64,000 nt of DNA from a bacterium (GTDB lineage: Bacteria; Myxococcota_A; Bradymonadia; UBA7976; UBA1532): assembly GCA_030427205.1 (NCBI GenBank), contig JAUHXC010000017.1:62001-126000 (forward strand). The letters are read 5' to 3'. The position numbers and the translations under genes were made by a program. Shown one piece after another: positions 3,748 to 33,334 of this stretch; positions within the stretch are counted from its first letter, which is position 1, and each line of letters opens with the position of its first letter. A model generated the notes under the pieces. The model had not been told where the DNA came from. It worked only from the letters and a program-made list of their open reading frames with translations, and ran no database searches.

Positions 3748-5570
<1,823 letters not shown>

Positions 5571-5574
<4 letters not shown>

Positions 5575-7352
5575 GCGCGCGGCGTGCCATCAAGCGCCTG
5601 CTGGCGGGTGGGCTGCTGGCGGGTGGGCTGCTGGCGCTGTCGGCCTGCGGCGAGGTCGAGACCGACGCGCCCGACGCGCCCGATGCATTGCCGCCTGCGG
5701 CCGAGCCCGCGGTCTGTCATTCGGGATTCGACCTCGACGAGGATTGCATATGCGATCGGGATGCCATCGACTGGCGGGCGCCCATCGAGCCGGGCAGCCA
5801 TCGGGGCGATGTCTTCGGCCTCGGCGAGCGGCTGCCGGCGGTGGTCGCCGCCGGTGAGCGCCACCTGGACGTCTGGCCGGTCGACGTCACCGGCGCCCTG
5901 CTGCCCTGGCGGCTGACCCGGGTCGCGCTCGATCCCGACACCGAGAACGAGACGCTGCTGCGCCTGCGCGGCGGGGCGAGCGCACTCGTCGGCTTCGATA
6001 CGCTGCCCGGCTTCTTCGACTGGCTCGGCCTGCCGCCGCACCCCGACCAGCGCCGCGCGCCGGCGGATTACGTCGGGGTCTGGCCGCTGGGCGCCGGCCT
6101 GATCGAGACCGAGGCCGGCCCGGCGCTGTCGTTCGGCTGCGCCGCCTGCCACGCCGGCCGCCTGCTGGGGCGCACGGTCATCGGCCTGCCCAACCGCCAG
6201 AGCCGGGCCAACGCCTTCTTCGGGGTCAGCAAGCAGCTGCTGCCGCTCTTGACGACGCCTTTCGTGCTCGACGCGTTGGGCGCCGAAGACGCGGAGGCGG
6301 CCCTGGCATTGCGCAGCGCCGCGGCGGCCCGCAGCATCGGCAGCCGCGCGCCCCAGGCCCGCGGGCTCGACAGCGCGCTGGCCCACATGAGCCTCAGCCT
6401 CGCCCGCCGGGGGGCCGACCCGTGGGCCGAGCCCGACCCGGCGCGGCAGGTGCGCCCCGAAGCGACCGCGCTCGAGACCCTGGTGGCCGACGTCAAGCCG
6501 CGGCCGCTGTGGACGACGAAGTACAAGACCCGCTGGACCGCCGACGGCTCGAACCGCGGGCACCCGGTGATCATCAACATCCTGTGGAACGAGATCGGCC
6601 GCGGCACCGACCTGCGCGCCTTCGGGCAGTGGCTGGCGGACAACGGGCAGATCGTCGACGAGATGACGGCCGCGGTGCTGGCCAACCGCGCGCCGCGCTG
6701 GACCGACTTCTTCCCGGCAGAGACCGTCGACCAAGAGGCGGCGCGGCGCGGCGCGCTCGAGTTCAGGCGCCGCTGCGCTGGCTGTCACGGCCACTACGAG
6801 AAAGCCTGGGCGCGGGCCGACGCCGACGGGCTCTCGCCCGCCGAGCTGCTGGAGACCACGCGGGTGGTCTATCACGCCGAGACGCCGGTCATGGACGTGG
6901 GCACCGACCCGCAGCGGCTGCAGGCGGTCGAGACCTTCGCCCGGCAGGTGGGGCGGCTGGCGCTGCTCGACGAGCACGGCATCAGCACCGCGCCGACGGG
7001 CGGCTATGTGCCGCCGCCGCTCGAAGGCATCTGGGCCCGTTATCCCTACCTGCACAACGGCAGCGTGCCGACCCTGTGCGCGCTGCTCAGCCCACCCGAC
7101 GAGCGGCCGACCACGTTCCGCATGGGGCCGTCGGAGGACGCGGCGACCGACTTCGACGCCGAGTGCGTCGGTTATCCCATCGGCGATGCCATCCCCGATG
7201 ACTGGCATGCCATCGAAGACAGCCTGATCGATACGACCACCCCCGGGCTGTCGAACGGCGGGCATCACACGATGCTCGACGGCGGCGACGGCAACCCGCC
7301 CCTCGACCGCGACGGGCGGCGCGATCTGATCGAGTTCCTCAAGACGCTCTGA
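5571..7352 (+). CDS. Di-haem c-type cytochrome lipoprotein, RoxA/MauG-like (copy 2)
   Basis: A 593-residue paralogue of the preceding gene with the same order: signal peptide with a repeated LLAGG element, lipobox LSAC (Cys26), an acidic Cys loop, haem site CAACH (190-194), haem site CAGCH (402-406) and the C-terminal GIWARYPYLHNGSVPTL. The stretches WNEIGRGTDL and RWTDFFPAE are nearly identical in both copies. The GTG start overlaps the upstream TGA as GTGA, which implies translational coupling and a shared transcript. It lacks the long Pro-Glu spacer of copy 1. The likely location is the outer face of a membrane; the function is inferred only from the RoxA/MauG-like signatures. Confidence 0.85.
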
Positions 7353-8545: not shown

Positions 8546-11188
8546 CTACGGCCGCCCCACCAGCCGCCAGCCCTTCCAGCCGGGGTCGTCGGCGGCGATC
8601 GAGCCGGCCACCGCCGCGCGGAAGGCCTCACCGGGGGCCTCGACCCCGCCGGCGGCGTGGAAGCGCGCGACGAAGCGCCGGGCGGCGGCGTCGTCGAGCA
8701 GCACGTCGGCGGCCAGCACGCTGCGGGTGCCCAGGGCCACGAGCATCTCCGGCAGACCCCACGGCTCGGCGCTGGCCAGCGAGCCGGTGCGCACGGTGCG
8801 GCAGGCGCTGAGCACCGCGACCCGCGGCGCGGCGCGGGCCAGCATCAGCTCGACGGCGGTCAGCGAGACGCCGTCGGCCAGGGTCAGTCGGGCGTCCCAC
8901 GGGCCGTCCTCGCCGGGGCTGCCGTGGCCGGCGTAATGCAGCCAGCGGGCGTCGCGCAGCGCGTCGATCACCCGCGATTCGGTCGCCTCGCCGCCGGCGA
9001 TGAGGCGGGCGCCGGTCGCGGCGGCGAGCGCCCGGCCCTCGGCGCGGGCATGGGGCAGATCGCCGGTGGGATCGGCGATGACCACCGGCGGCGCCGCGCC
9101 GGCGATGTGGGGCCGCGGCAGCAGGCCGGCGGCGGGCAGCCAGCCGATGGCGATGTGCGCGGTCCACGGGCGGCCGTCGGGCGCCGGCGGCAGGTCGCGG
9201 GCGGCGGGCAGGCCGCCGTCGACGATCATCAGCCCCCCGAGGCCCGCGATCCGCTCGGCCCACGGGCCCAGCGGATCGGCCGGATCGACCGCGCGGGCTT
9301 CGAGGCGCTCGCCGTCGACGTAGACGCCGACCCAGCGCGCCGGTCCGCGGCGGGTGAAGGCGATCAGCGCCTGACCCGCCGGCAGCGCCGCCTGCACCGC
9401 GGCCGGCGTGACCGGTTCGGGGGTCTGCGGCACGGCGAGCACCGCTTCGGCGGCGTCGAAGAGGCGCTGGATGCGGCGCTGCTCGGCGGCGCGGCCCTGC
9501 ATCCAGCGGGTATGGGCGTCGGGCGCGAGGCCGTCGCCGCCGAAGCGATCGGCCTCGAAAGCATCCCGGGCGCGGCGCCACGCGGAGAGCGCCGCCGCCC
9601 AGCGGCGGGCGACGGCGGGGTCGAGGCGGTCGATGGCCAGCCGGGCCGCGGTGCCGCGCAGCACCTGCAAGCGGGCCTCGTCGGCGACGGCGAAGGCCCC
9701 GACGACGTCCTCCCGGGCGAGCCGCAGATCGACCAGCGCCTCGACGATGGCCTGGCGGTCGCTGAAGAACGCCGAGCGGCCGCGGGCGACGCCGACCCCG
9801 GACGCCTGCTCCCGGATCGCGTCGATGCCCGCCCGCCACGCGGCGTCGGCCCCGGCGGCGTCACCGAGCGCGGCGTGGGCCCGGCCTTCGAGCAGGAAGC
9901 GCCGCCAGCGCAGGTGGGCCGCGCCGGCGGCGATGCGCTCGGCGGAGGCCCGGCACAGATCGAGCGCGCGCCGCGGGTCGCCCTCGGCCAGGGCCAGCTC
10001 GATGGTGAGCAGATCGACGAAGGCCGCCGAGAAGCCCGTGGCGCGTGGGTCGGCCCGCCGGGCGCCGTCGAGCGCGGTCCGCGCCGACTGCAGCTCGCCC
10101 GCGCGCAGGGCGGCGAGCGCCAGGTTGGCCATGGCGTTGGCCCGCCGCGGGCCGGATGGCGCCTCGAGGGCGGCGAAGTGGGCCATCAGGCCCGGGTAGT
10201 CCGGCTCCAGATGACCGGCGATCATCGCCCGCAGGCGGATCCAGCCGGCGTCGACGTCGAAGTGCACCCGCAGCGCTCCCGGCTCGCCGAGGCGCTCGAG
10301 GTCACGGCCGGCGGCGTCGAGGCGGGCGAGCGCGGCGGCGTGGTGCCCCCGATCTTGAAGCAGGTTGGCCCGGGCCAGTTCGAAGCCCACCGCGTCGGCG
10401 TCCCGCCCGGCCGCCCGGACCCCGGCGGCGGCCCGCTCGAGGTGGGCCTCGGCGCGCCTGAAGCGGCCGAGCTGCTGGTCGACGAGGCCCAGGTAGTAGT
10501 GTCCGAGCGCGACGCCGACCGCGTGCCCGGCGGCGGCGGCGGCGCGCAGGGCGTCTTCGGCCAGCGCGCCGGCTTCGGGGTAGCGCTGGGCCCACAGCAG
10601 CCGGTGCGCGCCCAGGCGCAAGGCGCGGGCGGCGTCCAGCGGGCGGTGGGCGGCGGCCGCGGCGGCGGCGCGCCACGGCGCGGGGTCGGGATCGGCCAGG
10701 CGGGCCCGCTCGAGGGCCAGGGCCCAGGCCCGCGGTCCGCCCGGGTCGGCGGCGGCGGCGTCGATGAGGGCGTGGGCCTGTGGGCGATCGTCGGCGCGGC
10801 GGGCGGCGCCGATCGCGGCGAGCGCCGGGTGCGGCGGCGCGGCGCGCTGCACGGGCAGGTGGGCGACGACGTGGCCCCGCTGCACCAGGGCGATCTCGCC
10901 GCGCGCGCCGGGTTCGCCGCCGGGGCAGACGATCGTCGGGCGGTCGGCGGGCGCCGGATGAAACGCGGTCGTCGAGCCATCGGGGCAGCGCACCTGCAGC
11001 GCGTTCGGTGGGTCGTGCACCCGCAGCTTCGCGCCGTCGGGCCCGATCTCGGGGCGCCAGAGGCCGCGCACGCGGACGAGCCCGGCGGGGTCGACGACGC
11101 GCGCCGCGACCGGCGGCGGCGGCGGCTCGGCGCACTGCGCGAGGGTCAGCGGCGCGGTGAGCGCGAGCGCGAGCGACCCGCGCCTCAC
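8546..11188 (-). CDS. Exported TPR-CHAT caspase-like protease
   Basis: An 880-residue protein with an N-terminal hydrophobic signal (LALALTAPLTLAQC), a beta-rich region of about 100 residues, a long Ala-rich helical TPR array (about 130-520) and a C-terminal CHAT domain. The His-Cys dyad is visible as HYAGHG (His755) and LSACRT (Cys796), so it should be an active clan CD cysteine protease. The GTG start at 11188 overlaps the stop of the subtilase gene as GTGA; a much longer reading of this frame into the subtilase gene is a shadow. The signal suggests action outside the cytoplasm, but the box ending in Gln-Cys is a poor lipobox. It is the last gene of the sigma-factor operon. TPR-CHAT proteins elsewhere are peptide-sensing or nucleoprotein-activated proteases. 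Confidence 0.85.
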   Translation of the reverse strand: MRRGSLALALTAPLTLAQCAEPPPPPVAARVVDPAGLVRVRGLWRPEIGPDGAKLRVHDPPNALQVRCPDGSTTAFHPAPADRPTIVCPGGEPGARGEIALVQRGHVVAHLPVQRAAPPHPALAAIGAARRADDRPQAHALIDAAAADPGGPRAWALALERARLADPDPAPWRAAAAAAAHRPLDAARALRLGAHRLLWAQRYPEAGALAEDALRAAAAAGHAVGVALGHYYLGLVDQQLGRFRRAEAHLERAAAGVRAAGRDADAVGFELARANLLQDRGHHAAALARLDAAGRDLERLGEPGALRVHFDVDAGWIRLRAMIAGHLEPDYPGLMAHFAALEAPSGPRRANAMANLALAALRAGELQSARTALDGARRADPRATGFSAAFVDLLTIELALAEGDPRRALDLCRASAERIAAGAAHLRWRRFLLEGRAHAALGDAAGADAAWRAGIDAIREQASGVGVARGRSAFFSDRQAIVEALVDLRLAREDVVGAFAVADEARLQVLRGTAARLAIDRLDPAVARRWAAALSAWRRARDAFEADRFGGDGLAPDAHTRWMQGRAAEQRRIQRLFDAAEAVLAVPQTPEPVTPAAVQAALPAGQALIAFTRRGPARWVGVYVDGERLEARAVDPADPLGPWAERIAGLGGLMIVDGGLPAARDLPPAPDGRPWTAHIAIGWLPAAGLLPRPHIAGAAPPVVIADPTGDLPHARAEGRALAAATGARLIAGGEATESRVIDALRDARWLHYAGHGSPGEDGPWDARLTLADGVSLTAVELMLARAAPRVAVLSACRTVRTGSLASAEPWGLPEMLVALGTRSVLAADVLLDDAAARRFVARFHAAGGVEAPGEAFRAAVAGSIAADDPGWKGWRLVGRP

Positions 11189-13752
11189 CGCACGATCAGC
11201 CGCAGCGGGGAGACGTCGCGCACGATGGTCTTGCCGTCCGGCTGCTGCACGTACAGCACCAGCCGCGCGTCGAGCTTGGTCCACAGCACCGGGTCGTCGG
11301 GCACGCTGAGCTTGAGCCCGCTGATGGTGAAGCCGGCGCCCGGCTTCCAATAGCTGTGCGGCACGTAGTCGGCGAGGTTGACGTAGACGTCGGTGCCGCG
11401 CTCGGTCTCGACCCACAACAGCGGGCTGACGATCTCGGTATCGGCCGGCGCGTCGGGGTTGAGCGCGATGTCCAGCGAGCCGTAGGCGAGGCCGCCGCCG
11501 GGCGCGACCCGGGCGGTGAAGCGGCAGTCGGGGCACCACGGATCCTGCGGCTGCGGGCCGAGGCTGCCGACCGAGTAGCGATCGGGGGCCAGCGCGACGA
11601 AGGGACAGTCGCCGATGCAGGGCCGGCTCAGGTCGGGCGCGTCCGGGTCGTCGGGGCGCAGCGGCAGGCACTCGGCGTCGGCCCAGTCGGGCTCGGCGGG
11701 CGGGTCGGCGGCGCAGTCGGGCGCGGCGGGATCGGGGTCGACGCCGCATTGCACGAAGCGCGCGCGGCAGGCGGCGATGGTCTCGCTGATCAGCGCCGGC
11801 AGGTCGTCGTCCTGCGCGACCAGGCAGCCGAGCAGCGCCGGCAGGTCGTCGCACGCGGCGAGCGCCGCCATGCCGGGCCACCACAGCCCGCGGTATTGTA
11901 CCTCGGGGAAGACCCGGCGCCCCGGGCACAGCGGGCGGCCGCTGGCGTAGAGCAAGAACTCCAGCTGGCGCGGGGTGACCTCGTCGGGGTCGAGGTCGGG
12001 CCGATCGGGGATGTGGCCGAGCCAGCGCGCGGCGAGCCCGCTGGTCAGCGCGGTGGCCACCGAGGTGCCGCTGAGCGTGGCCGGCAGGCGCACGGCGAGG
12101 TCCGCGTCCACCGGCGGCGTCGTATCGCCGTCGACGCAGATCGACGCCCGCCGCGGCCGGGCGGGCCCGTCGACCATCACATGCTGTCCCGGCGCCATCA
12201 GGGTCGCGAAGCCGAAGTCCACGTGCAGCGTCGCCGCCCGATCGCGGCTGTCGTGGGCCCCGACCGGGATCGCCAGCCGCCGGCCGACGTCTTCGCCGGC
12301 CTCGCAGCTGCGCTCGAGGCCCCACTGCGCCGGATAGAACAGCTTCGGCGGCTGCCCGCGCACCTCGCCGCGCCAGTCGCGGGCGCAGACGTCGCGCTCG
12401 TCCTCGTCGAGCTCGAGCTGGTCGCCCAGCCAGCGCAGGTCGCTGCGGTTGCCGGCGGCGGTGAAGACGGGCACCTCCTGGTCGGCGGCGCGGGCCAGCA
12501 TGTGGCGCACGGGCGCGCCGGTGGGGGACTCGATCGTCAGACACTGCCCCGGTCGGCCGCCGAGCACGTCGCCGGCCAGATCGGTGAGGCCCCGGGCCTC
12601 GGGCGGCCAGCCCAGGCTGAGGTTGATGACCCGCGGCAGGCCGGCGGGCATCACCGCGAGCGCGTCGGCGATGGCCCGGGCCACGTCGCCCACCGGGCCG
12701 GTGTGGTCGACGCTCAGCGCCGGGAAGAGGTGCAGCCGGGCGTCGGGGGCCGCCTGCCGGATGAGCGCGGCCATCGCCGTGCCGTGGATCGCCGGGGTCG
12801 CGGTCGAGCCGGGGTGCACCTCGAGGTCGATCGACGCGGCCACCGCCGGATCGACCGCGGTGTCGATCAGCGCGACGTGCACCGGCACGACCGGCGCGCC
12901 GGGGCCGTCGAGCCCCATGCGATCGAGGTGCCAGCTCAGCATCTCGGGCGTCGGTCGGGCGGGGGACTGGGCCACCGCGTCGCAGGCGCGGGCGATGTTG
13001 GCCGCGAGCAGGTCGCCGTGGCTGTCGACCGCCGTGCGCAGCGCCGAGACGATGTCGCATTGCGCGCCGTCGCGGGCGGTGAGCCGCTCGCCGTCGAGTT
13101 CGAACCACAGCCGGTGGAAGCGGCCGGCGCTCTCGGGGCCGACCCGCTCGGGCGAGAGCAGCCGCTCGCCGACGGCGGTGACCCGGTCGGCGCCCGCGCA
13201 GGGCGCGCCGTCGACGCAGAACCAGGCGGCGAAGTCCCGGCGGGCGCGGGCCTGCATGTCAGCGACGACCGGCGCGAAGTCGGCGACCGGGGCCGACCCG
13301 CCGTGCACCGCGTCGACGACGTAGAGGTCGCCGCGGCACGGGCGGCCGTAGACCTCGAGCACCACCGCGTCGTCGGGCAGCCCGACCGGCGAGGGCTCGG
13401 CGGGCAGCGGATCGTCGAGCGCGGTCACCGGCGCCGGGCCGGGTATGGCGTCGGGGGATGCCATGTCGGCCGGCTGACTGTCGGTCATGCCATCGGCGAT
13501 GCCATCAGGTATGGCATCTGGCATGCCTGTCATGCCATCTGATGAGTCAGGTGTGCCATCTGATGAGTCAGGTATGCCATCTGGTGAGTCATGTGTGCCA
13601 TCTGGTGAGTCATGCGTGATGTCGGGCATGGCATCGGGCATGGCATCGACGGCGACGTCTGCCGCCACGCCGGCCACCTGGTCCTCGCAGCCGACGCAGA
13701 CGAGCGCCAGGGCCAGCGCCAGGCGGGCTCGGCGGAGGGCGCGCGGACTCAT
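11185..13752 (-). CDS. Subtilisin-family (S8) serine protease lipoprotein
   Basis: An 855-residue lipoprotein with lipobox VCVGC (Cys22). A low-complexity stretch of Met-Pro-Asp and Asp-Ser-Pro-Asp-Gly units (about 37-95) is followed by a Cys-containing region and an S8 domain. The catalytic triad is in order: Asp297 in ALIDTAV, His323 in HGTAMA, Ser564 in SGTSVATA; the oxyanion Asn435 is in TAAGN. The Cys-rich C-terminal region (about 620-855) ends in a beta-type domain. The start at 13752 overlaps the stop of the anti-sigma-like gene (ATGA), and the stop overlaps the CHAT gene (GTGA). Co-translation with a CHAT protease suggests a proteolytic cascade at the cell envelope, which is inference. 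Confidence 0.9.
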   Translation of the reverse strand: MSPRALRRARLALALALVCVGCEDQVAGVAADVAVDAMPDAMPDITHDSPDGTHDSPDGIPDSSDGTPDSSDGMTGMPDAIPDGIADGMTDSQPADMASPDAIPGPAPVTALDDPLPAEPSPVGLPDDAVVLEVYGRPCRGDLYVVDAVHGGSAPVADFAPVVADMQARARRDFAAWFCVDGAPCAGADRVTAVGERLLSPERVGPESAGRFHRLWFELDGERLTARDGAQCDIVSALRTAVDSHGDLLAANIARACDAVAQSPARPTPEMLSWHLDRMGLDGPGAPVVPVHVALIDTAVDPAVAASIDLEVHPGSTATPAIHGTAMAALIRQAAPDARLHLFPALSVDHTGPVGDVARAIADALAVMPAGLPRVINLSLGWPPEARGLTDLAGDVLGGRPGQCLTIESPTGAPVRHMLARAADQEVPVFTAAGNRSDLRWLGDQLELDEDERDVCARDWRGEVRGQPPKLFYPAQWGLERSCEAGEDVGRRLAIPVGAHDSRDRAATLHVDFGFATLMAPGQHVMVDGPARPRRASICVDGDTTPPVDADLAVRLPATLSGTSVATALTSGLAARWLGHIPDRPDLDPDEVTPRQLEFLLYASGRPLCPGRRVFPEVQYRGLWWPGMAALAACDDLPALLGCLVAQDDDLPALISETIAACRARFVQCGVDPDPAAPDCAADPPAEPDWADAECLPLRPDDPDAPDLSRPCIGDCPFVALAPDRYSVGSLGPQPQDPWCPDCRFTARVAPGGGLAYGSLDIALNPDAPADTEIVSPLLWVETERGTDVYVNLADYVPHSYWKPGAGFTISGLKLSVPDDPVLWTKLDARLVLYVQQPDGKTIVRDVSPLRLIVR
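13484..13660 (-). repeat. Degenerate short tandem repeats encoding Asp-Gly/Met-Pro-Asp units
   Basis: Repeated 15-18 bp units built on GCCATCTGATGAGTCA and GGCATGCCAT-like words encode the linker after the lipidated Cys of the subtilase. This stretch is clearly richer in A and T than its surroundings. That may reflect recent repeat expansion. Confidence 0.6.
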
Positions 13753-14522
13753 GGCGTCTCCCCGTCGGGCGTCGCCCGGTAGTCGACCGTCAGCGGCACC
13801 AGCTGCACCCCGCCGTCCTCGGCGGCGGTCGCCGGGTCCATGCCGTCGAGATCCGCGAGCGCGTCGGCGTCGGCCGCGAGCGCGATGGCGACGACGCAGC
13901 GCCCCGGCGCCTCGCCGAAGAGCGACCGGGCCGACGCCACCAGGGTCCACGCCCCGTCGGCGCCCGCTTCGAGGCCGTCGACCGCGCGGAAGGCCCCATC
14001 GTCGCACGCCGCGAACGCCCGGGCTGCGGCGGCGGTGCGCCCGGCGTCGGTCGGCCGCACCGTGAGCCGCAGGGTGCCATCGGGCACGAAGACGGCCGGC
14101 TCTCCGCTGCCCTGCGTTGGGGTCTGCGAGCGGGTGATCTTCACCGCGCCGCGCACCGCGCCGAGGGTATAGGCCGGCGCGTCGGGTGCGCCGGGGCGCA
14201 GCACGGCGAAGGTGAGCCCCGCCGCCAGCGCCAGCCCGGCCCCGGCCCAGACCAGCCGGCGGTTGCTCTGTGGTCGGGGCGTGGCGACGGCCATGCGATC
14301 GAGCAGCCCGGCGTCGACCGGCGCGGCGAGGTCGGCCAGCATCGCCCGATCGGCGGCGGAGCGGGCGAGCACCGCGTCCACCGCCGCCGCCTGCTCGGCG
14401 TCGAGGCGACCGCTGCGCCACGCCTGCAGATCGCCCGGATCGAGCTCGGGCTCGCCGATCGCCGGGTGCGGGGCCCGCGCGCGGAGCAGCGCGTCGAGGC
14501 CGTCGTCGTCCAACGCGCTCAT
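13749..14522 (-). CDS. Single-pass membrane anti-sigma-like protein
   Basis: A 257-residue protein. The N-terminal 90 residues are acidic and helical (DPGDLQAWRSGRLDAEQ, a layout typical of anti-sigma cytoplasmic domains), but the HxxxCxxC zinc motif is missing. A transmembrane segment follows at about 96-113 (LVWAGAGLALAAGLTFAVL). The C-terminal part is extracytoplasmic and beta-rich. Its start codon overlaps the stop of the sigma-factor gene (ATGA), and its stop overlaps the subtilase start (ATGA). By position and topology it should hold the sigma factor at the membrane until a signal arrives. No anti-sigma family motif is conclusive. Confidence 0.6.
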   Translation of the reverse strand: MSALDDDGLDALLRARAPHPAIGEPELDPGDLQAWRSGRLDAEQAAAVDAVLARSAADRAMLADLAAPVDAGLLDRMAVATPRPQSNRRLVWAGAGLALAAGLTFAVLRPGAPDAPAYTLGAVRGAVKITRSQTPTQGSGEPAVFVPDGTLRLTVRPTDAGRTAAAARAFAACDDGAFRAVDGLEAGADGAWTLVASARSLFGEAPGRCVVAIALAADADALADLDGMDPATAAEDGGVQLVPLTVDYRATPDGETP

Positions 14523-15151
14523 GCCGCCGCCATCCACTGCCGGGTCAGGCCCCGGATCTTGTGTTGCCAGTTGTAGACCACCTGCTTCTTGACCCCCATG
14601 CGCGCCGCCGCCTCGTCGACGGTCAGCCCGTCGGCGTAGACCAGCGCCAGCACCACCCGCCCGCGGTTCGAGAGCTGGTCTTCGAGGTGCTGCCACAGCG
14701 CGTCCTGCAGCTGCCGGCCGGCGGCCATCGACTCGGGGTCGGCCACCGGCGCGGGCACCGCCGCGGCCTCGCTCAGCTCGCCCTCACCGCCGGGCGCCTT
14801 GCGCTTGGCGGCGCCGTGCTTCTCGGCCATCGTGGCGATGAGCTGGCCGGTGATCATGCTGATGTAGCCCTCGAAGGACTTGCCCCTCGTCGGGTCGTAA
14901 TTGCGCAGGCGGCGGCCGTCGTCGGCCAGCAGCCGGCACCACGCCTCGTGCATGAGATCGTCGGTGTCGAGCCCACCCGGCCCGCGCCGCCCGCGGGTCA
15001 TGCGCAGCACGCGGGCCCGGATGACCGGCGCGACCCGCTCGGCCAGCCGCCGCCCGGCGCTGCGGTCACCGGCGAGGGCGGCGCGGATGGTGGCCGGCGC
15101 GTCGTCGGGCCGCCGCAGGCCGATGACTGTGGCCAGGAGCTGGATCAGCAC
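14519..15151 (-). CDS. ECF-type RNA polymerase sigma factor
   Basis: A 210-residue group IV sigma factor. Region 2 is at about 25-100 (LDTDDLMHEAWCRLL, YDPTRGKSFEGYI). The linker is at about 110-145. Region 4 with a helix-turn-helix is at about 150-205 (LVYADGLTVDEAAARMGV, KKQVVYNWQHKI). The GTG start is chosen because a GGGAGGA ribosome-binding site sits just upstream on the minus strand. It heads the chain sigma, anti-sigma-like, S8 protease, CHAT protease, all joined by 4-base overlaps. Such factors usually activate their own operon, so the upstream gap (15152-15231) probably carries the promoter, although no clear motif is seen. Confidence 0.85.
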   Translation of the reverse strand: MLIQLLATVIGLRRPDDAPATIRAALAGDRSAGRRLAERVAPVIRARVLRMTRGRRGPGGLDTDDLMHEAWCRLLADDGRRLRNYDPTRGKSFEGYISMITGQLIATMAEKHGAAKRKAPGGEGELSEAAAVPAPVADPESMAAGRQLQDALWQHLEDQLSNRGRVVLALVYADGLTVDEAAARMGVKKQVVYNWQHKIRGLTRQWMAAA

Positions 15152-15231
15152 GGTCTCCTCCCTCGTGGTGGACGGTCGCACACGGCGTTCAGCCACGTAA
15201 AGTCGTCGGATGGCGGGGCTGGGGGCGCCGA

Positions 15232-15993
15232 TCACGCCATCGCTCCGGCGGGCGCGAACGGGCCGGGGGCGGGCAGCGGACCGACCATCGGCAGGCACCA
15301 TTGGCGGAACTGCGGGCGGTACATCGGCCGGCTCAGCGGGCGGGCGTCGAACGCCCGGCGGTAGGCCTCGACGAGCCAGGGCGCCGGCGCCGGGCGGGCG
15401 TCTCCCGCGTCGGCGGTGCGCACGCCGGGCAGCGGGGCGGCGGTCCAGCCCCACTCACCGCGGGCGTCGAAGCCGGCGACCATCGCGCAGACCGCCGCGT
15501 CGTCGTCGATCGCGGTCCCCGAGATGAAGACGAGGTGATCGCCGACCCGGGCCGCTTCGGCCCGCACCCGGGCCCAGATCCGGCGGGAGAGCCCGCGACC
15601 GCGCCACTCGGGGGCGCAGGCGGCGTGGCTGCCCTGCACCAGCCGCAGGCCGCGGCGGCGGGCCGGGCCGAGGTCGTAGTGCTGCTCGATGGGCAGCGGG
15701 CCGGCGTCGTGCAGCCAGGCGGTCGCGACGACCCGGCCGTCGACCCGCGCGACGAAGATGCGCGCCCGGGCGAAGTGCTCATCCACCGGGAAGAGGTGCC
15801 GGTTGTCGGCCCATGGGCGGCCGAGGTGCTCTTCGCAGTAGATGCGGTTGGCCAGTTCGAAGGCCGCCTGCCGCTCGGCGGGGTCGCGGGTCTCGACGAC
15901 CTCGATGCCATCGGGCCGCTCGGGCCGAACAGGGCGGCGGGGCAGGCAGGCGGCGGACGGACGGCGGGTATGGGCGCTGATGGTGCGGTTCAT
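15232..15993 (-). CDS. GNAT-fold acyltransferase, FeeM/autoinducer-synthase-like
   Basis: A 253-residue protein. After a basic N-terminus of about 30 residues the core has the GNAT order: ARIFVARVDGRVVATAWL for beta 2-3, then HAACAPEWRGRGLSRRIW holding the acyl-CoA-binding R/Q-x-x-G-x-G turn, and AVCAMVAGFDARGEWGW near the end of the fold. The N-terminal RIYCEEHLG stretch resembles the N-acyl amino acid synthase branch of the fold, so synthesis of an acylated signal or lipid is possible. The start is the ATG at 15993. It lies between the sigma-factor operon and the CHAT-nSTAND gene on the same strand, but with gaps of about 80-95 bp on each side. Substrate unknown. Confidence 0.6.
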   Translation of the reverse strand: MNRTISAHTRRPSAACLPRRPVRPERPDGIEVVETRDPAERQAAFELANRIYCEEHLGRPWADNRHLFPVDEHFARARIFVARVDGRVVATAWLHDAGPLPIEQHYDLGPARRRGLRLVQGSHAACAPEWRGRGLSRRIWARVRAEAARVGDHLVFISGTAIDDDAAVCAMVAGFDARGEWGWTAAPLPGVRTADAGDARPAPAPWLVEAYRRAFDARPLSRPMYRPQFRQWCLPMVGPLPAPGPFAPAGAMA

Positions 15994-16088: not shown

Positions 16089-19000
16089 TCAGCGCGTCGG
16101 GTCCACCAGGAAGCTCTCCCAAGGCCGCAGCCAGCTCGAGCTGGTCTGCGGCGTCTCGCCCTGGCTGCACGTGCGCCACATCTGGAAGCCGGCCGACGTC
16201 GGATAGCGGGTCACTCGAGCGAAGGCTTCGGGGGAGGGGCAGCCGCGGGTCGCCGCGGTCAGCCGCGCCCGCAGCGCCGCCGCGTCGGCTTCGGCGGGCG
16301 CCGGCTCGGGCGGCGTCAGCGACCACAAGCGCACCGCGCCGAGCCGCAGCTCGGCCAGCCAGCGACCGGTCTCGTCGACGACCATGCGCGCGGCGAGCGG
16401 GTCGTCATCGGCCGCGCCCGGGAAGCCGACGGCGGTCGCGAGTTCGAGCAGGCTGCCGTCGCGGGTGTCGATGACGAGCACCGGTCCATCGGGCACGTTG
16501 ATCGCCACCCGATGCGGGTCGACGAAGCGCATCGTCGGCCGCTCGATGGTCGGTGGGATCGGCTGGGCGAGCACCTTCTCGAACCGCAGCGCCTGGTCCG
16601 GGTCAGCCTGATGGGCGGGCGTGAAGTCGAAGCGGTAGAGCCCATCGGTCAGCAGCACCGCACCGGTCGTATCGTCGGCGTTGAACGCCAGCGTCGGGCA
16701 GAACGGGCCGAGCGCACGTCGGAGCGGGTCGGTCTGCCAGACGCGGCCGACCCGGTCGCCGTCGCGGTAGACCCGCTCGGTGCCGGACAGCGTGGGCCAG
16801 GGCGGGCTCAGCTCGAGGGTCGTGCACAGGACCAGCGCTGGCCGCCACGGGTTGACGCCGGCCACCTCGCTGCTGCGCCCCGTGATGAGCCCGGCGAGGC
16901 CTTCGGGCGCCGACGGCGGCGCGGGGAACTCGATCGAGCGCCCGTGGCGATCGACCAGCCGCGGCTCGCCGGCGCAGGTGGCGGCGAAGAGCCAGCGGGG
17001 CGAGTCCACCCGGCGGGGGCGCGGCCGGGCGCAGGTGCTCGCCTCGCCGAGCCGCGACCCATCGGCGGTCCGCAGCTCGATGACTTCGGCGTCCAGCAGC
17101 GGGTCGGTGCCCGCGGGCGGCCCGTCGGCCACGCCATCCTCGGGCGCGTCGACGGGCACCAGCGCCACCACCCGCCCGCGCGCGTCGAGCGCCAGCGGCG
17201 CGCCGGGCCAGGGCGGCGCCGGCTCGACGACGCGGGCGCCGGTGTCGGGGTCGATCCGCGCGATGCCCTCGTCGTCGAGGACCACGAGCCGACCCTTGGG
17301 GTCGAAGCCGATGAGCCGGCGCGCCGGCCACCAGTCGTGGGCGATGGGCCGGCTCAGCGCGTGGCGGACGGCGTCGGACCAGCCGGGGGTCGCGTCGTCG
17401 GCCACCATGGCCAGCGCCGCCGCGGCGAGGCTGGCGTCGCCCGGGTTCTCGACGGCCTCGGCGAGCCAGCTCGAGTCCACCAGCTTCTGCGCCAGCGTAC
17501 GCTTCTCCTCGGCGAGCTCGGCCCGGCTCGCCGCCTGCTCGTCGATCGTGTAGCGCAGCACCAGGACGACGCTCAGCAGGATGAGCGTCACCACGACGCC
17601 GCCGATCATGAAGAGCCGGGTGCGCCGCGATCGATGCACGCCGGCCTCGCGGGCCGCGCGGCTGGCGTCCAGCAGGGCCTGCTCGTGGGCGCTCGGGCGG
17701 CGCATGGCGTGCAGGCCGCGCTCGATCTCGTCGAGCGGGCCGGCGGCCAGCAGCTTCGTATCCCGATCGGCCGCGCCGCGGATGGCCTCGAGGCCGCGCT
17801 CGATCTGCTCGCGGGGGTGGTCGCCGGTCTCCCGCTGCTCGGCGCTCCAGTCGCGGGCCTGCACCTCGAGCAGGCGCCGCGCGCGCTGCCCGGGGCGGTT
17901 CGAGCGGTGGAAGGCGTCGACCACCATCGGCCCCCACATGTCGTGGGCCAGCCGGGTGCCCCCGCGGGCGTCGCGCTCGCCGGTCCAGCGGCCGAGCAGG
18001 CGGTGGTCGATGGCCGCCTCGATCAGCGGCTCGATGGCGGCGTGGGCGTAGCGCTCGGCGAGGGCGTCGACGGTGTGGGCCGCGGCGGTGCCCTGGCGCG
18101 TCGTATGGAACTCGAGCAGATCGAGCAGCAGGCCGTCGGCGCCGCCGCGGGCCTCGGCGGCGTCGAGCTGCTTCTCGAAGACCTCGACCAGCTCGACCCC
18201 GCTGCGCCGCGCGCGGTCGTAGGCGGCGCCGTCGAAGACCGGCCGGCTCGGGTCGGTGTCCCACATCCGGCTGAGCAGCATCTGCAGGATGGGGGCGACC
18301 GCCGCGGGCTCGCCGGCGGTCAGATCGTCAGCGATGCGCTCGGCGAGGCCGTCCTGCAATTCCAGCTGGAAGTGCTCGCGCAGGCGACGGGTGCGGGTCG
18401 GGCCCTCGACGACCTCGATCACCGCGTTGCGGTCCAGCGGGCGCACGTAGGCCCGGCTCGCCGTCAGGCCCCGCGGCTCGAGCGCCGCCGCCAGCTCGGC
18501 GAGGTAGGCCTTGCGGAAGCCGAGCACCAGCTTGCCGGCGGGCGCGGCGCCGGTTTCGAAGATGGCCACCGCCGCGTCGAGCAGAGCGCCCAGGCCGCCG
18601 TCGCCTTCGCCGTCGAGCAGGGCCTCCTCCACCTGATCGACGATGGCCACGATCGGCCGCCCGCCGCGGGCTTCGGCCCCCTGCCAGTCGATGGGGCCCG
18701 TCGCGCCCGCCGCGAGGCCGAGGCAGGCCCGCAGCGCGCCGCTCAGGCCGGTGCTCGGGTCGCGCCGCCGCAGCGCGGTGCGGTAGCCCGCCGCCGTCAG
18801 CCGCGGGGTCAGGCCCGCTTCGAGCAGCGACGACTTGCCGACCCCCGACTCGCCGTACAGCAGGATGATCGGCGGGGTCTCGGGCTCGGTGATGAGCCGG
18901 TAGAGGCGCCGGATCTCGGGCCCGCGCCCGAAGAAGATCTCGGCGTCGGCGCTGCTGAAGCGCTGCACGTGGCGATAAGGGCTCGCCGGCAGCGGCGCCG

Positions 19001-19739
19001 GCGGCACCTCGGGCAGCCCGGCGAGCGGGTCGTCGAGCGCGTCGGCCAGCCGCCAGCCGCCGGCCTGCTCGGGCTCGTCGGCGTTTGTGGTCAGCTGCCA
19101 GGGCAGCGACGGGCCCTTCTTCTTGGTGCCCGCCCGGCGGACCATGCGCCACAGATCGGTCGGCGCCTCGCCGCGGTGGGTGCGCACCGCGTCGCGGGCG
19201 TGGTCGAAGGCCTGCTGCACCGAGCGCCCGCGCACCAGCCCCTGATAGAGCCAGTCGCTGAAGATGAGCGCCGCGTCGTCGGCGATGGCGTAGTCGGTGG
19301 CGATGACCGCCGGCACCCCGCTGGCCAGCAGCGTGCCCGCCTGCTCGCCGGTGCTGCAGCCGTTGAGCACCACCAGCCGCAGCGCGGGCAGGGCGCCGAG
19401 CATCTGCAGCACCCCCGCCGAGTGGGCCGCCGCCGAGCCGGCCTCGGCGTCGGGGGCGTGGGGGTGATCGGCGCGCATCATCCAGCGATCGGGGCCGGCG
19501 TGGCCGGCGAAGTGCACCCCGACGATGCGCTCGGTCAGCGCGGGATCGGTCAGCAGCCGGATGAGGTGGTCGCGGGTGGCGTCGGGCTCGAACTGCGGCT
19601 CGACGCCGGTGGCCTCGAGCATGCCGCGCCCGTGGCGGCGCAGGCGATCGAGCTCGGGGGCGAGGCCGCGCAGGTGCTCTTCGGTGCCCACGTCGGCGTT
19701 GGCGAAGAAGAAGAGGAAGACCGGGCGGGCGTCGCGCAT
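16089..19739 (-). CDS. CHAT protease-nSTAND1 ATPase-transmembrane-propeller protein
   Basis: A 1,216-residue multidomain protein. Domain 1 is an N-terminal CHAT protease (1-210) with His80 in VHFAGHAG and Cys128 in VVLNGCSTG. Domain 2 is an nSTAND1-type P-loop NTPase (about 258-600) with Walker A GESGVGKSS (296-304) and Walker B IVAIVDQVEE (363-372). A helical region follows, then a transmembrane helix at about 709-730 (IGGVVVTLILLSVVLVL). About 480 C-terminal residues follow, with recurring FDPKGRLVVLDDEG-like blades typical of WD40-like propellers. The layout matches NTP-driven signal proteins predicted to act in immunity or regulated cell death: a sensor domain, an oligomerising NTPase and a caspase-like effector. 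No ribosome-binding site precedes the ATG, and a TATAGA hexamer sits only about 9 bp upstream, so the mRNA may be leaderless. Confidence 0.85.
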   Translation of the reverse strand: MRDARPVFLFFFANADVGTEEHLRGLAPELDRLRRHGRGMLEATGVEPQFEPDATRDHLIRLLTDPALTERIVGVHFAGHAGPDRWMMRADHPHAPDAEAGSAAAHSAGVLQMLGALPALRLVVLNGCSTGEQAGTLLASGVPAVIATDYAIADDAALIFSDWLYQGLVRGRSVQQAFDHARDAVRTHRGEAPTDLWRMVRRAGTKKKGPSLPWQLTTNADEPEQAGGWRLADALDDPLAGLPEVPPAPLPASPYRHVQRFSSADAEIFFGRGPEIRRLYRLITEPETPPIILLYGESGVGKSSLLEAGLTPRLTAAGYRTALRRRDPSTGLSGALRACLGLAAGATGPIDWQGAEARGGRPIVAIVDQVEEALLDGEGDGGLGALLDAAVAIFETGAAPAGKLVLGFRKAYLAELAAALEPRGLTASRAYVRPLDRNAVIEVVEGPTRTRRLREHFQLELQDGLAERIADDLTAGEPAAVAPILQMLLSRMWDTDPSRPVFDGAAYDRARRSGVELVEVFEKQLDAAEARGGADGLLLDLLEFHTTRQGTAAAHTVDALAERYAHAAIEPLIEAAIDHRLLGRWTGERDARGGTRLAHDMWGPMVVDAFHRSNRPGQRARRLLEVQARDWSAEQRETGDHPREQIERGLEAIRGAADRDTKLLAAGPLDEIERGLHAMRRPSAHEQALLDASRAAREAGVHRSRRTRLFMIGGVVVTLILLSVVLVLRYTIDEQAASRAELAEEKRTLAQKLVDSSWLAEAVENPGDASLAAAALAMVADDATPGWSDAVRHALSRPIAHDWWPARRLIGFDPKGRLVVLDDEGIARIDPDTGARVVEPAPPWPGAPLALDARGRVVALVPVDAPEDGVADGPPAGTDPLLDAEVIELRTADGSRLGEASTCARPRPRRVDSPRWLFAATCAGEPRLVDRHGRSIEFPAPPSAPEGLAGLITGRSSEVAGVNPWRPALVLCTTLELSPPWPTLSGTERVYRDGDRVGRVWQTDPLRRALGPFCPTLAFNADDTTGAVLLTDGLYRFDFTPAHQADPDQALRFEKVLAQPIPPTIERPTMRFVDPHRVAINVPDGPVLVIDTRDGSLLELATAVGFPGAADDDPLAARMVVDETGRWLAELRLGAVRLWSLTPPEPAPAEADAAALRARLTAATRGCPSPEAFARVTRYPTSAGFQMWRTCSQGETPQTSSSWLRPWESFLVDPTR

Positions 19740-19828: not shown

Positions 19829-20635
19829 ATGTGCACCTTGATCGTGATCCACCGGGTGGTGCCCGGCCTGCCGGCGGTCTTCGCCGCCAACCGCGACGAG
19901 TTCTTCGCCCGACCGTCCGCCGGCCCGCAGGTGCTCGATCGGCAGACCGGGATCGTCGGCGGCCGCGATCTGGTGGCCGGCGGCACCTGGATGGGGCTCA
20001 CCCCGGGCGGGTTCTTCGCCGGGCTCACCAACCAGCGGCAGGTCGGCGGGGCCGATCGCGCGCGGCGGTCGCGGGGCGAGGTCGTGCTCGAGACGCTGCG
20101 CGCCGGCGCCGTGGGCGGCGTCCCGGCGGCGCGGGCGTACCTCGACGGGCTCGATGGCCGGGACTACAACCCGTTCAACCTGATCTTCGGCACCGCCGAG
20201 GCGCTGTGGGCGGCCTACGGGCGCAGCGCCGGCGACGGGCGGCTGCGGTTCGAAGTGGTGCCGCCGGGGGTGCACGTCTTGCCCAACGACGTGCTCGACT
20301 CGACGGCGTTCCCCAAGGTGCGGCGCATCCGCGCGCGGCTGACCGACTTGCCCGAGAGCTGGCCGGCGCTCGAGGCGCGGCTGATCGCGGTGCTCGCCGA
20401 CGAGACCCCGCCCGAGGCCCTGCCCGAGACCGGCGACGGCGGCCTGCCGCTGCCCGTCCGGCGCGCGCTGCACGCGGTGAAGGTGGTCCTGCCCGAGTAC
20501 GGCACCCGCACGAGCAGCCTCGCCGCGCTGGTGCCCGGCGGCGTCGCCCGCTACGCCTTCGCCGACGGGCCGCCCGGCGAGACCGCGTTCGTCGACCATC
20601 TGCCGCTGTTGGCCGCCGCCGAGGAGGCGCGATGA
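19829..20635 (+). CDS. NRDE/TANGO2-like Ntn-hydrolase-fold protein
   Basis: A 268-residue protein of the NRDE family (bacterial homologues of TANGO2/Ser-rich C21orf29-type proteins). The family name motif is visible as AANRDEFFARP (Asn21-Glu24), followed by GGRDLVAGGTWMG and FFAGLTNQR. The ATG at 19829 is preferred to an upstream TTG because it places Cys2 directly after Met, the expected N-terminal nucleophile of the fold. Its biochemical role is unsettled in the family; TANGO2 relatives have been linked to haem handling. The stop overlaps the ATG of the MNIO gene (ATGA), so the two are translated together. A TAGACG -10-like hexamer lies at 19760-19765. Confidence 0.85.
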   Translation: MCTLIVIHRVVPGLPAVFAANRDEFFARPSAGPQVLDRQTGIVGGRDLVAGGTWMGLTPGGFFAGLTNQRQVGGADRARRSRGEVVLETLRAGAVGGVPAARAYLDGLDGRDYNPFNLIFGTAEALWAAYGRSAGDGRLRFEVVPPGVHVLPNDVLDSTAFPKVRRIRARLTDLPESWPALEARLIAVLADETPPEALPETGDGGLPLPVRRALHAVKVVLPEYGTRTSSLAALVPGGVARYAFADGPPGETAFVDHLPLLAAAEEAR

Positions 20636-21531
20636 GCTTCTCCGAGCGGGTCGTCGATCTGCCCTTCCTGGGCATCGGCGTCTCGACCGAGTACGGCGCG
20701 GGCGCGCAGACCGGCGCGCTCGACCTCGAAGCGCTGCACGCCCGGCACCCGGCGTACGGGGCCTTCCTCGAGCTGGGCATCGAGGTGGCCAAGGGGCTCG
20801 ACGCCGACGCCCGTCGCTGGATCGCCGCCGGGCGGCCGACCACCTATCACTTCCTCGACGTCAACCTCGACGAGCCCGAAGACCTCGACCCGGCCTGGCT
20901 GGCCGAGGTGAAGCGCCTGGTCGGCGAGATCGGCCCGGCGTGGCTCTGCGGCGACGCCGGGCTGTGGCATTTTGGTCCCCGCGAGCGGGGGCACATGCTG
21001 CTGCTGCCGCCGATCCTGACCGACGAGGCGGCCCGGGAGATGGCCGAGGGCATCATCGCGCTGCGCGAGGCGACCGGGCTCGAGGTGCTGCCCGAGAACC
21101 CGCCCGGCGCGGTCTACCTCGGCGATCTGCACCTGCTCGACTTCTACGCCCGGCTGGCGGACTACGCCGACACCGGCCTGCTGCTCGACGCGGCCCACCT
21201 CGCGATCTACCAGCGCACCTGCGGCCATCGACCGACCACCGCGCTGGACGGTTTGCCCGCCGAGCGTATCGTCGAGCTGCACGTGGCCGGGGCGAGCAGC
21301 CGCGAGGTGCAGGGGCTGAGCATCGTCGAAGACGACCACACCCCGGCGGTGCTGCCCGATACCTGGCAGATCATCGACGCGGTGGGCCCGCGGGCCACGG
21401 CGCTGCGGGCGGTGGTCTTCGAATGCGAGCGCAACCCGCTCGACGCCTGCCTGCCGGGCTTCCGCCGCATCGAGCGCAGCCTCGCCGAGACGCCGTTCGG
21501 TCGGCGTCGGGCCGCGCGGACCGCGCGATGA
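20632..21531 (+). CDS. MNIO (DUF692) multinuclear non-haem iron oxidase
   Basis: A 299-residue TIM-barrel protein of the DUF692/MNIO family (MbnB, TglH, ChrH), which modifies cysteine or other residues in ribosomally made peptides. Positions that match family iron ligands are His73 (TTYHFLDVN), Glu155 (PENPPG), Asp186 (LLLDAAH), His217 (ELHVAG), Asp234 and His236 (VEDDHTPAV) and Glu264 (VFECERNP). The usual SDH ligand appears altered to GDA (108-109), with a His a few residues later (His113). This may mark a divergent subfamily. Both ends overlap neighbours by ATGA: the NRDE gene upstream and the partner gene downstream. The substrate peptide is not obvious; Cys-rich lipoproteins follow in the same direction. 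Confidence 0.8.
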
Positions 21532-32606: not shown

Positions 32607-32643
32607 TCGGGCGTCGGCTCTCGGGCTTCGGCGATCACCACGC

Positions 32644-33334
32644 GAGCGACCCCCGCCGGCATCTCGCCTGTCGGGAAACAGCTCGCGAGGGACCGGCGAG
32701 CGATCTGGATCGGTGGAGATCGCCTCGGGAGCGACCCCCGGCAGTATCTCGCCTGTCGAGAAACAGCTCGCGAGGGGCCGGCGGGCGATCTGGATCGGTC
32801 GAGATCGCCTCGGGAGCGACCCCCGGCAGTATCTCGCTTGGCGAGAAACAGCTCGCGAGGGACCGGCGAGCGATCTGGATCGGTGGAGATCGCCTCGGGA
32901 GCGACCCCCGGCAGTATCTCGCTTGTCGAGAAACAGCTCGCGAGGGACCGGCGAGCGATCTGGATCGGTGGAGATCGCCTCGGGAGCGACCCCCGGCAGT
33001 ATCTCGCTTGTCGAGAAACAGCTCGCGAGGGACCGGCGAGCGATCTGGATCGGTGGAGATCGCCTCGGGAGCGACCCCCGGCAGTATCTCGCCCGTCGGG
33101 AAACAGCTCGCGAGGGACGGGCGAGCGATCTCGACTTCCCGAGACCGCCTCGGGAGCGACCCCCGGCAGTATCTCGCCCGTCGGGAAACAGCTCGCGAGG
33201 GACGGGCGAGCGATCTCGACTTCCCGAGACCGCCTCGGGAGCGACCCCCGGCAGTATCTCGCTTGTCGAGAAACAGCTCGCGAGGGACCGGCGAGCGATC
33301 TCGACTTCCCGAGACCGCCTCGGGAGCAACTCTG
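32644..33334. repeat. Array of about eight 85-bp tandem repeats
   Basis: The anchor word GATCT recurs at 32702, 32787, 32872, 32957, 33042, 33127, 33212 and 33297, exactly 85 bp apart, with units 85-99 percent alike. Each unit carries the palindrome CTCGCGAG and a TCTCG/CGAGA hairpin. The three last units also hold the hairpin TCCCGAG-accgc-CTCGGGA. Because 85 is not a multiple of three, every strand stays open in shifting frames, so the long reading frames here are artefacts. There are no spacers, so this is not CRISPR. No gene is seen from 32607 to 33669. Confidence 0.9.

Follow-up and report, generated by a model that had tools for sequence, protein, structure and literature searches.

The window, by which we mean the whole 64,000-nucleotide stretch of DNA analysed, carries a minus-strand operon of four overlapping genes encoding an ECF sigma factor, a one-transmembrane protein (P2), an S8 subtilase and a TPR-CHAT protease. 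The operon is one of about 13 related copies in a single genome, each coupling a sigma factor and membrane anti-sigma switch to envelope-exported proteins, in most cases a subtilisin-like and a caspase-like protease. It thus looks like a recurrent envelope control-and-proteolysis system as opposed to a one-off. We read it as a pair of pairs, in which a sigma-P2 regulator would drive an exported S8-CHAT effector pair, and assign this reading a probability of about 0.5.

A fully coupled four-gene operon

The genes run from 15151 to 8546, and each overlaps its neighbor by 4 nt. The sigma-P2, P2-S8 and S8-CHAT junctions are GCATGAGC, CCATGAGT and CGGTGAGG, respectively, confirming the ATGA, ATGA and GTGA overlaps and the gene positions reported in a first-pass annotation of this DNA. 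The features are as follows.

15155..15162, minus strand: Shine-Dalgarno-like GGGAGGAG before the sigma gene, also present in orthologue L074
14519..15151, minus strand: ECF sigma factor, 210 aa, GTG start, sigma regions 2 and 4
15116..15148, minus strand: hydrophobic N-terminal segment of the sigma factor, LIQLLATVIGL, residues 2-12; hydrophobicity retained in the orthologue
13749..14522, minus strand: P2, probable anti-sigma factor of ZAS ancestry without zinc ligands, single transmembrane segment, 257 aa
14268..14522, minus strand: cytoplasmic anti-sigma domain of P2, residues 1-85, with family profile matches to RslA and ChrR
14199..14258, minus strand: transmembrane helix of P2, approximately residues 89-108, from hydropathy and sequence
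13773..14081, minus strand: periplasmic β-sandwich domain of P2, residues 148-250, from an AlphaFold2 model built on 2 sequences
11185..13752, minus strand: exported S8 subtilase, 855 aa, with a conserved C-terminal GPQPxDPxCPxC region
8546..11188, minus strand: exported TPR-CHAT caspase-like protease, 880 aa

The GTG start of the sigma gene is supported by a strong Shine-Dalgarno sequence, GGGAGGAG, just upstream. Its product matches TIGR02937 above the cut-off (1.9e-17), as well as Sigma70_r2 and Sigma70_ECF, in Pfam/NCBIfam, and consists of regions 2 and 4 only within roughly 200 residues, as is typical of ECF sigma factors, so the first-pass call of an ECF-type sigma stands.

P2 very probably descends from zinc-binding anti-sigma factors

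P2 of the window matched no family in Pfam or NCBIfam, and the Hx3Cx2C signature by which ZAS (zf-HC2) anti-sigmas are recognized is absent from it, with all zinc ligands lost. The first-pass annotation had described the protein as placed like an anti-sigma but lacking the zinc motif, which holds for the window protein but not for its family. Hx3Cx2C is retained in 11 of 48 P2 relatives, one of which (L011) aligns the motif exactly at the window's VLARSAAD, and five of 41 family members match zf-HC2. When a P2 family profile was compared with the PDB, the top matches were the anti-sigmas RslA (3hug_B, 2e-4) and ChrR (2q1z, 1.3e-3), over profile positions 13-94, corresponding to the N-terminal domain. 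P2 thus resembles ZAS anti-sigmas in an N-terminal domain detectable by profile and in the zinc motif of its relatives, and differs from them in that the window protein has no zinc ligand at all. Homology therefore supports an anti-sigma role for the second gene, and its ZAS derivation led us to reject an unknown protein type for P2. The combination of a related anti-sigma domain, an adjacent sigma gene, and a transmembrane segment with an extracytoplasmic domain is that of an anti-sigma recognized by homology. P2 is, as judged from sequence, very probably an anti-sigma factor whose zinc ligands were lost.

An RR pair precedes the transmembrane helix, which indicates an N-in/C-out topology with the N-terminal domain in the cytoplasm. 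Residues 148-250 form a β-sandwich in the AlphaFold2 model, with pLDDT values mostly between 70 and 89; its structural matches are Ig-like but weak, none falling below E=1e-3. In its layout P2 is comparable to RseA, RsiW and RsiV, single-pass anti-sigmas with cytoplasmic sigma-binding and periplasmic domains that are controlled by regulated intramembrane proteolysis. Unlike those systems, the module encodes an exported S8 and an exported CHAT protease in the anti-sigma's own operon.

Both proteases are intact and carry export signals

The two protease genes were assigned by Pfam/NCBIfam matches to Peptidase_S8 (4.6e-6) and CHAT (2.8e-19), and the catalytic residues lie at the positions named in the first-pass annotation (D297, H323 and S564 of the subtilase; H755 and C796 of the CHAT protein). 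The S8 triad and the oxyanion residue N435 are invariant in 33/33 relatives, as expected of the S8 family, and the CHAT dyad is invariant in 41/41 complete P2-type relatives, in keeping with a TPR-CHAT protease of clan CD. This invariance rules out decayed or pseudo-enzymes. The N-terminal TPR matches of the CHAT protein fall below the Pfam cut-off, and a helical solenoid is modeled at approximately residues 121-460, in an AlphaFold model that is poor overall (pLDDT 55, two sequences used).

The lipoboxes of the window proteins are unorthodox (CVGC in S8, LAQC in CHAT), whereas those of the orthologue (VSGC and LLAC) and of many relatives are canonical. The earlier description of the subtilase as a lipoprotein with an intact triad accordingly holds for export and triad, the lipobox of the window protein itself being unorthodox. 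S8 relatives carry a lipobox in some cases and an ordinary signal peptide in others. Many P2-linked CHAT proteins have a lipobox signal sequence and others an N-terminal hydrophobic anchor; the few CHAT calls with neither are probably start errors. These signals, with the conserved H755 and C796, agree with the earlier proposal that the CHAT enzyme is exported with an intact dyad. Bacterial CHAT (caspase-like) proteases have mainly been described as enzymes of the cytoplasm, or as linked to CRISPR or to conflict. The present CHAT family seems as a whole to be exported, with a co-evolving subtilase as its partner and a sigma/anti-sigma switch to which it is linked.

The module recurs within one genome and one family

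The genome carrying the window (11.4 Mb, 100 contigs) was searched with each of the four proteins and yielded many paralogues. Their neighborhoods were annotated by means of profiles built in-house and a gene caller based on codon usage; this simple caller sets some starts wrongly, leaving family counts uncertain by a few. Thirteen strong sigma+P2 loci were found in this genome, with CHAT in 11/13 and S8 in 9/13. The P2 profile gave matches in 11 of 28 genomes, the strong ones confined to the same family, where seven genomes hold 47 strong P2 loci (CHAT in 32, S8 in 26, both in 24). The sigma and P2 genes are same-strand neighbors in 36 cases and overlap in 21. Gene order is otherwise shuffled among the 47 loci, and the exact order sigma-P2-S8-CHAT appears again at L011 in the same genome, L074 in the same genus and L094 in another genus. 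Chance clustering is ruled out by enrichment: the 13 P2 loci hold 12 of the genome's 31 CHAT genes, against an expectation of 0.70 (p=1.8e-12), and 8 of its 12 Pfam subtilase genes, against an expectation of 0.27 (p=3e-11).

One same-genus locus (L074/L114, from "bacterium isolate 3_bin.88") retains the four genes and each of their three overlaps, at identities to the window operon of 79% for sigma, 56% for P2, 63% for S8 and 65% for CHAT. Genes flanking L074 match window 3748-7352 at 83 and 75%, marking it as the positional orthologue, and it was the sole match when the collection was searched with the single S8 protein. The gene-neighborhood comparison suggested with the first-pass annotation, of whether homologues stay together, thus came out positive, in that the four families co-occur in other loci and other genomes.

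A proposed regulator pair and effector pair

Gene-tree distances (maximum-likelihood trees) were correlated over loci for every pair of families. The S8-CHAT correlation was highest (r=0.90, n=23), followed by sigma-P2 (0.67, n=39), with the other pairs at 0.28-0.53; within the window's own genome the values were 0.75 for S8-CHAT and 0.72 for sigma-P2. Because S8 and CHAT are long, the comparison was redone with equal column numbers. S8-CHAT remained highest at 0.66, while sigma-P2 fell to 0.39, no longer distinguishable from the remaining pairs (0.29-0.48), and a special tree coupling of sigma with P2 was withdrawn. Each pair also occurs alone. S8-CHAT pairs with no sigma or P2 seen nearby are present at L115, L116, L119, L120 and L121, several of these stretches stopping at contig ends, and sigma-P2 pairs without S8 or CHAT at L038, L039, L075, L091, L093, L095, L098, L106 and L107. 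Together, the strong S8-CHAT coupling and the separate occurrence of each pair make a division into a regulator pair and an effector pair the best reading of the module, and we favor sigma-P2 as the sensor and regulator of an exported S8-CHAT pair. Two of the solitary sigma-P2 pairs, L091 and L098 (genomes G003 and G010), lie near a 63% orthologue of window gene 20632-21531 and are possibly the same site as the window operon minus its protease pair.

Under the favored regulator-effector reading, P2 would hold the ECF sigma as a single-pass anti-sigma through its cytoplasmic helical domain, itself likely derived from a zinc anti-sigma domain, and its periplasmic β-sandwich would be the likely sensor. 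An envelope signal acting on P2 would free the sigma factor and raise expression of the operon and of the protease pair. S8 and CHAT would cooperate in the envelope. The simplest options are that the subtilase matures or activates CHAT, or the reverse, or that both share one substrate. The proteases may also feed back by cutting P2.

The first-pass annotation had proposed the opposite direction, with a protease sensing or cleaving at the envelope and the anti-sigma relaying the signal. In its explicit form, S8 and/or CHAT would be the site-1 protease that cuts the periplasmic domain of P2, a site-2 M50 protease would finish the cleavage, and the released sigma would amplify the operon. S8 and CHAT do share operon and compartment with P2, P2 is single-pass with a periplasmic domain, M50 homologues are present in the genome, and there is a precedent in the TPR-CHAT protein Csx29, which cleaves the sigma inhibitor Csx30 (PMC10028731). 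However, sigma-P2 pairs exist without the proteases and S8-CHAT pairs without P2, and in the tree correlations P2 is not the best-tracked partner of either protease, S8 and CHAT being coupled more strongly to each other than to P2. The direction is thus unsupported as it was put, and these observations are fitted at least as well by a regulator that drives its effectors; a site-1 role for the proteases, and with it an envelope counterpart of Craspase or CalpL, is a minority reading that we consider rather unlikely. More speculative still is a full envelope Craspase counterpart, in which an exported subtilase and TPR-CHAT relay would release an ECF sigma, itself tethered to the membrane, from an anti-sigma devoid of zinc, with some 13 copies of diverging sensor and protease specificities serving as parallel alarm lines.

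The module could instead be an ordinary regulon, in which an ECF sigma/anti-sigma switch controls proteases secreted for nutrition or to turn over the envelope and S8 and CHAT are not special partners. Secreted enzymes are commonly linked to sigma factors, and the operon at L109, which combines an ECF sigma, a P2-like protein and a secreted C14 caspase, indicates that ECF control of exported clan CD proteases is a recurring arrangement. Yet no other pair is coupled as strongly as S8-CHAT, whose coupling persists without sigma-P2, and CHAT enzymes are usually specific regulatory rather than digestive proteases, making this explanation improbable. The first-pass suggestion of a role in defense, predation or programmed death found nothing pointing to it; a PADLOC search of the module proteins gave no convincing match, and known phage-defense systems were rejected as candidates.

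A hydrophobic N-terminus on half of the module sigma factors

A hydrophobic segment before region 2 opens 21 of the 41 module sigmas with a usable start, the window's included (L078, whose start is uncertain, is excluded from the 21), as compared to 0/7 control ECFs. Its hydrophobicity is preserved in the orthologue (PFAVLGAVLGL against LIQLLATVIGL) despite many changes in codons 2-12, and in the sigmas of L010, L091 and L098 the N-terminal stretch holds at least 18 uncharged residues. Sigmas with the segment tend to have a zinc-bearing P2 partner (10 versus 1, p=0.004, L078 included). A limited literature search found no precedent on ECF sigmas, and from sequence comparison the segment appears to be a new observation. 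It resembles the hydrophobic N-terminal segment before region 2 in pro-sigmaK and pro-sigmaE of Bacillus, which are not ECF sigmas, a likeness read from sequence and with a short segment in the window. That the segment tethers the sigma to the membrane beside P2 for release by proteolysis of the sigma itself, as in pro-sigmaK, would fit its frequency in module sigmas against the seven control ECFs, its persistence in orthologues and its link to zinc-bearing P2, but is very unlikely given that the window segment has just 11 residues, short for a membrane span, that about half of the module sigmas lack it, and that several sigma starts, the window's not among them, have no clear Shine-Dalgarno sequence.

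A candidate promoter element

Upstream of separately transcribed S8 genes, mostly 55-70 bp before the start, GTCAG[AG] was found in 8/14 cases as compared to 11/336 other genes (p=3.7e-8), the eight including orthologue pairs and so representing about five independent cases. The motif resembles an ECF -10 element but lies at variable distances from the A/T-rich tract before it; it occurs exclusively at loci where the sigma has no hydrophobic N-terminus. As a promoter element of these S8 genes it is a lead, not proof. Neither GTCAGA nor another shared promoter was found upstream of the window sigma or its orthologue, and an autoregulatory promoter of the window sigma was dropped.

Relation to known systems

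One of the closest described contexts is that of the actinobacterial ECF54 sigmas, which, in the account given in PMC8999054 (summarizing Huang 2015 and Casas-Pastor 2021, with a model member from Geodermatophilus), have carboxypeptidase, subtilase and CHAT neighbors, no anti-sigma, and a proposed proteolytic control. The module shares with ECF54, so described, an ECF sigma with subtilase and CHAT proteins in its gene neighborhood. It differs from that description, which includes a carboxypeptidase and no anti-sigma, in having a one-TM anti-sigma of ZAS descent at nearly every well-covered locus, including next to the window sigma.

The type III-E CRISPR system Craspase/CASP (Cas7-11, the TPR-CHAT protein Csx29, Csx30 and CASP-sigma) likewise has, at a single locus, an ECF sigma, a sigma inhibitor and a TPR-CHAT protease that cleaves this inhibitor (PMC10028731). 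The module CHAT profile matches Craspase TPR-CHAT 7x8a over the CHAT domain (E=5.3e-6), identifying the CHAT domains as homologous. In contrast to Craspase, the module has no Cas protein, its CHAT is exported, its inhibitor is a membrane ZAS-derived anti-sigma, and a co-evolving subtilase is added. No CRISPR array was present in the window, and PADLOC gave no Csx30 or Cas7-11 (gRAMP) match among the module proteins; a lone Cas7_IIIh match to S8 (E=1.5e-4) is implausible and was judged spurious. By its sequence features the module thus appears to share parts with ECF54 and Craspase and to fall within the definition of neither. If our reading of the module is true, the loose context observation made for ECF54 would become a defined system with an identified anti-sigma, and the 13 natural paralogues in one genome would make the targets of exported caspase-like proteases, and their activation by a subtilase, directly testable.

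Neighboring and related loci

Several further observations were made in and around these loci. A FeeM/GNAT-type acyltransferase gene (window 15232-15993, minus strand; PF21926, 2.5e-8) lies 80 bp upstream of sigma, and a CHAT-nSTAND1 protein with a TM segment (window 16089-19739, minus strand; CHAT 2.5e-10, nSTAND1 4e-32) is encoded two genes upstream of the operon; both are absent next to the same-genus orthologous operon. Elsewhere in the window's own genome, L109:8287-11202 (C52, ~124.8-127.7 kb) encodes an ECF sigma together with a P2-like anti-sigma and a Peptidase_C14 caspase (PF00656, 1.7e-14) that is exported; the anti-sigma and caspase genes overlap by 4 nt. L034:14116-17976 (C89) has two caspase-like genes, one a Peptidase_C14 match at 2e-23, and a Ser/Thr kinase beside a sigma-P2-CHAT locus. 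At L037, L040 and L041 (C87, C91 and C98), the ECF sigma is accompanied by a classical zinc-finger anti-sigma, and the opposite strand encodes a CHAT protein of 1300 aa. An 85-bp tandem repeat at window 32633-33301 (7.9 copies, 94% matches) appears CRISPR-like to a naive spacing search; this minisatellite is the only spaced repeat in the window, and a CRISPR locus at 32.6-33.3 kb was rejected. Finally, window 49396-53658 (plus strand) encodes a 1420-aa protein with an N-terminal kinase-like domain that matches many PADLOC kinase models (PD-T4-6, 6.7e-31) and is probably a Hanks kinase.
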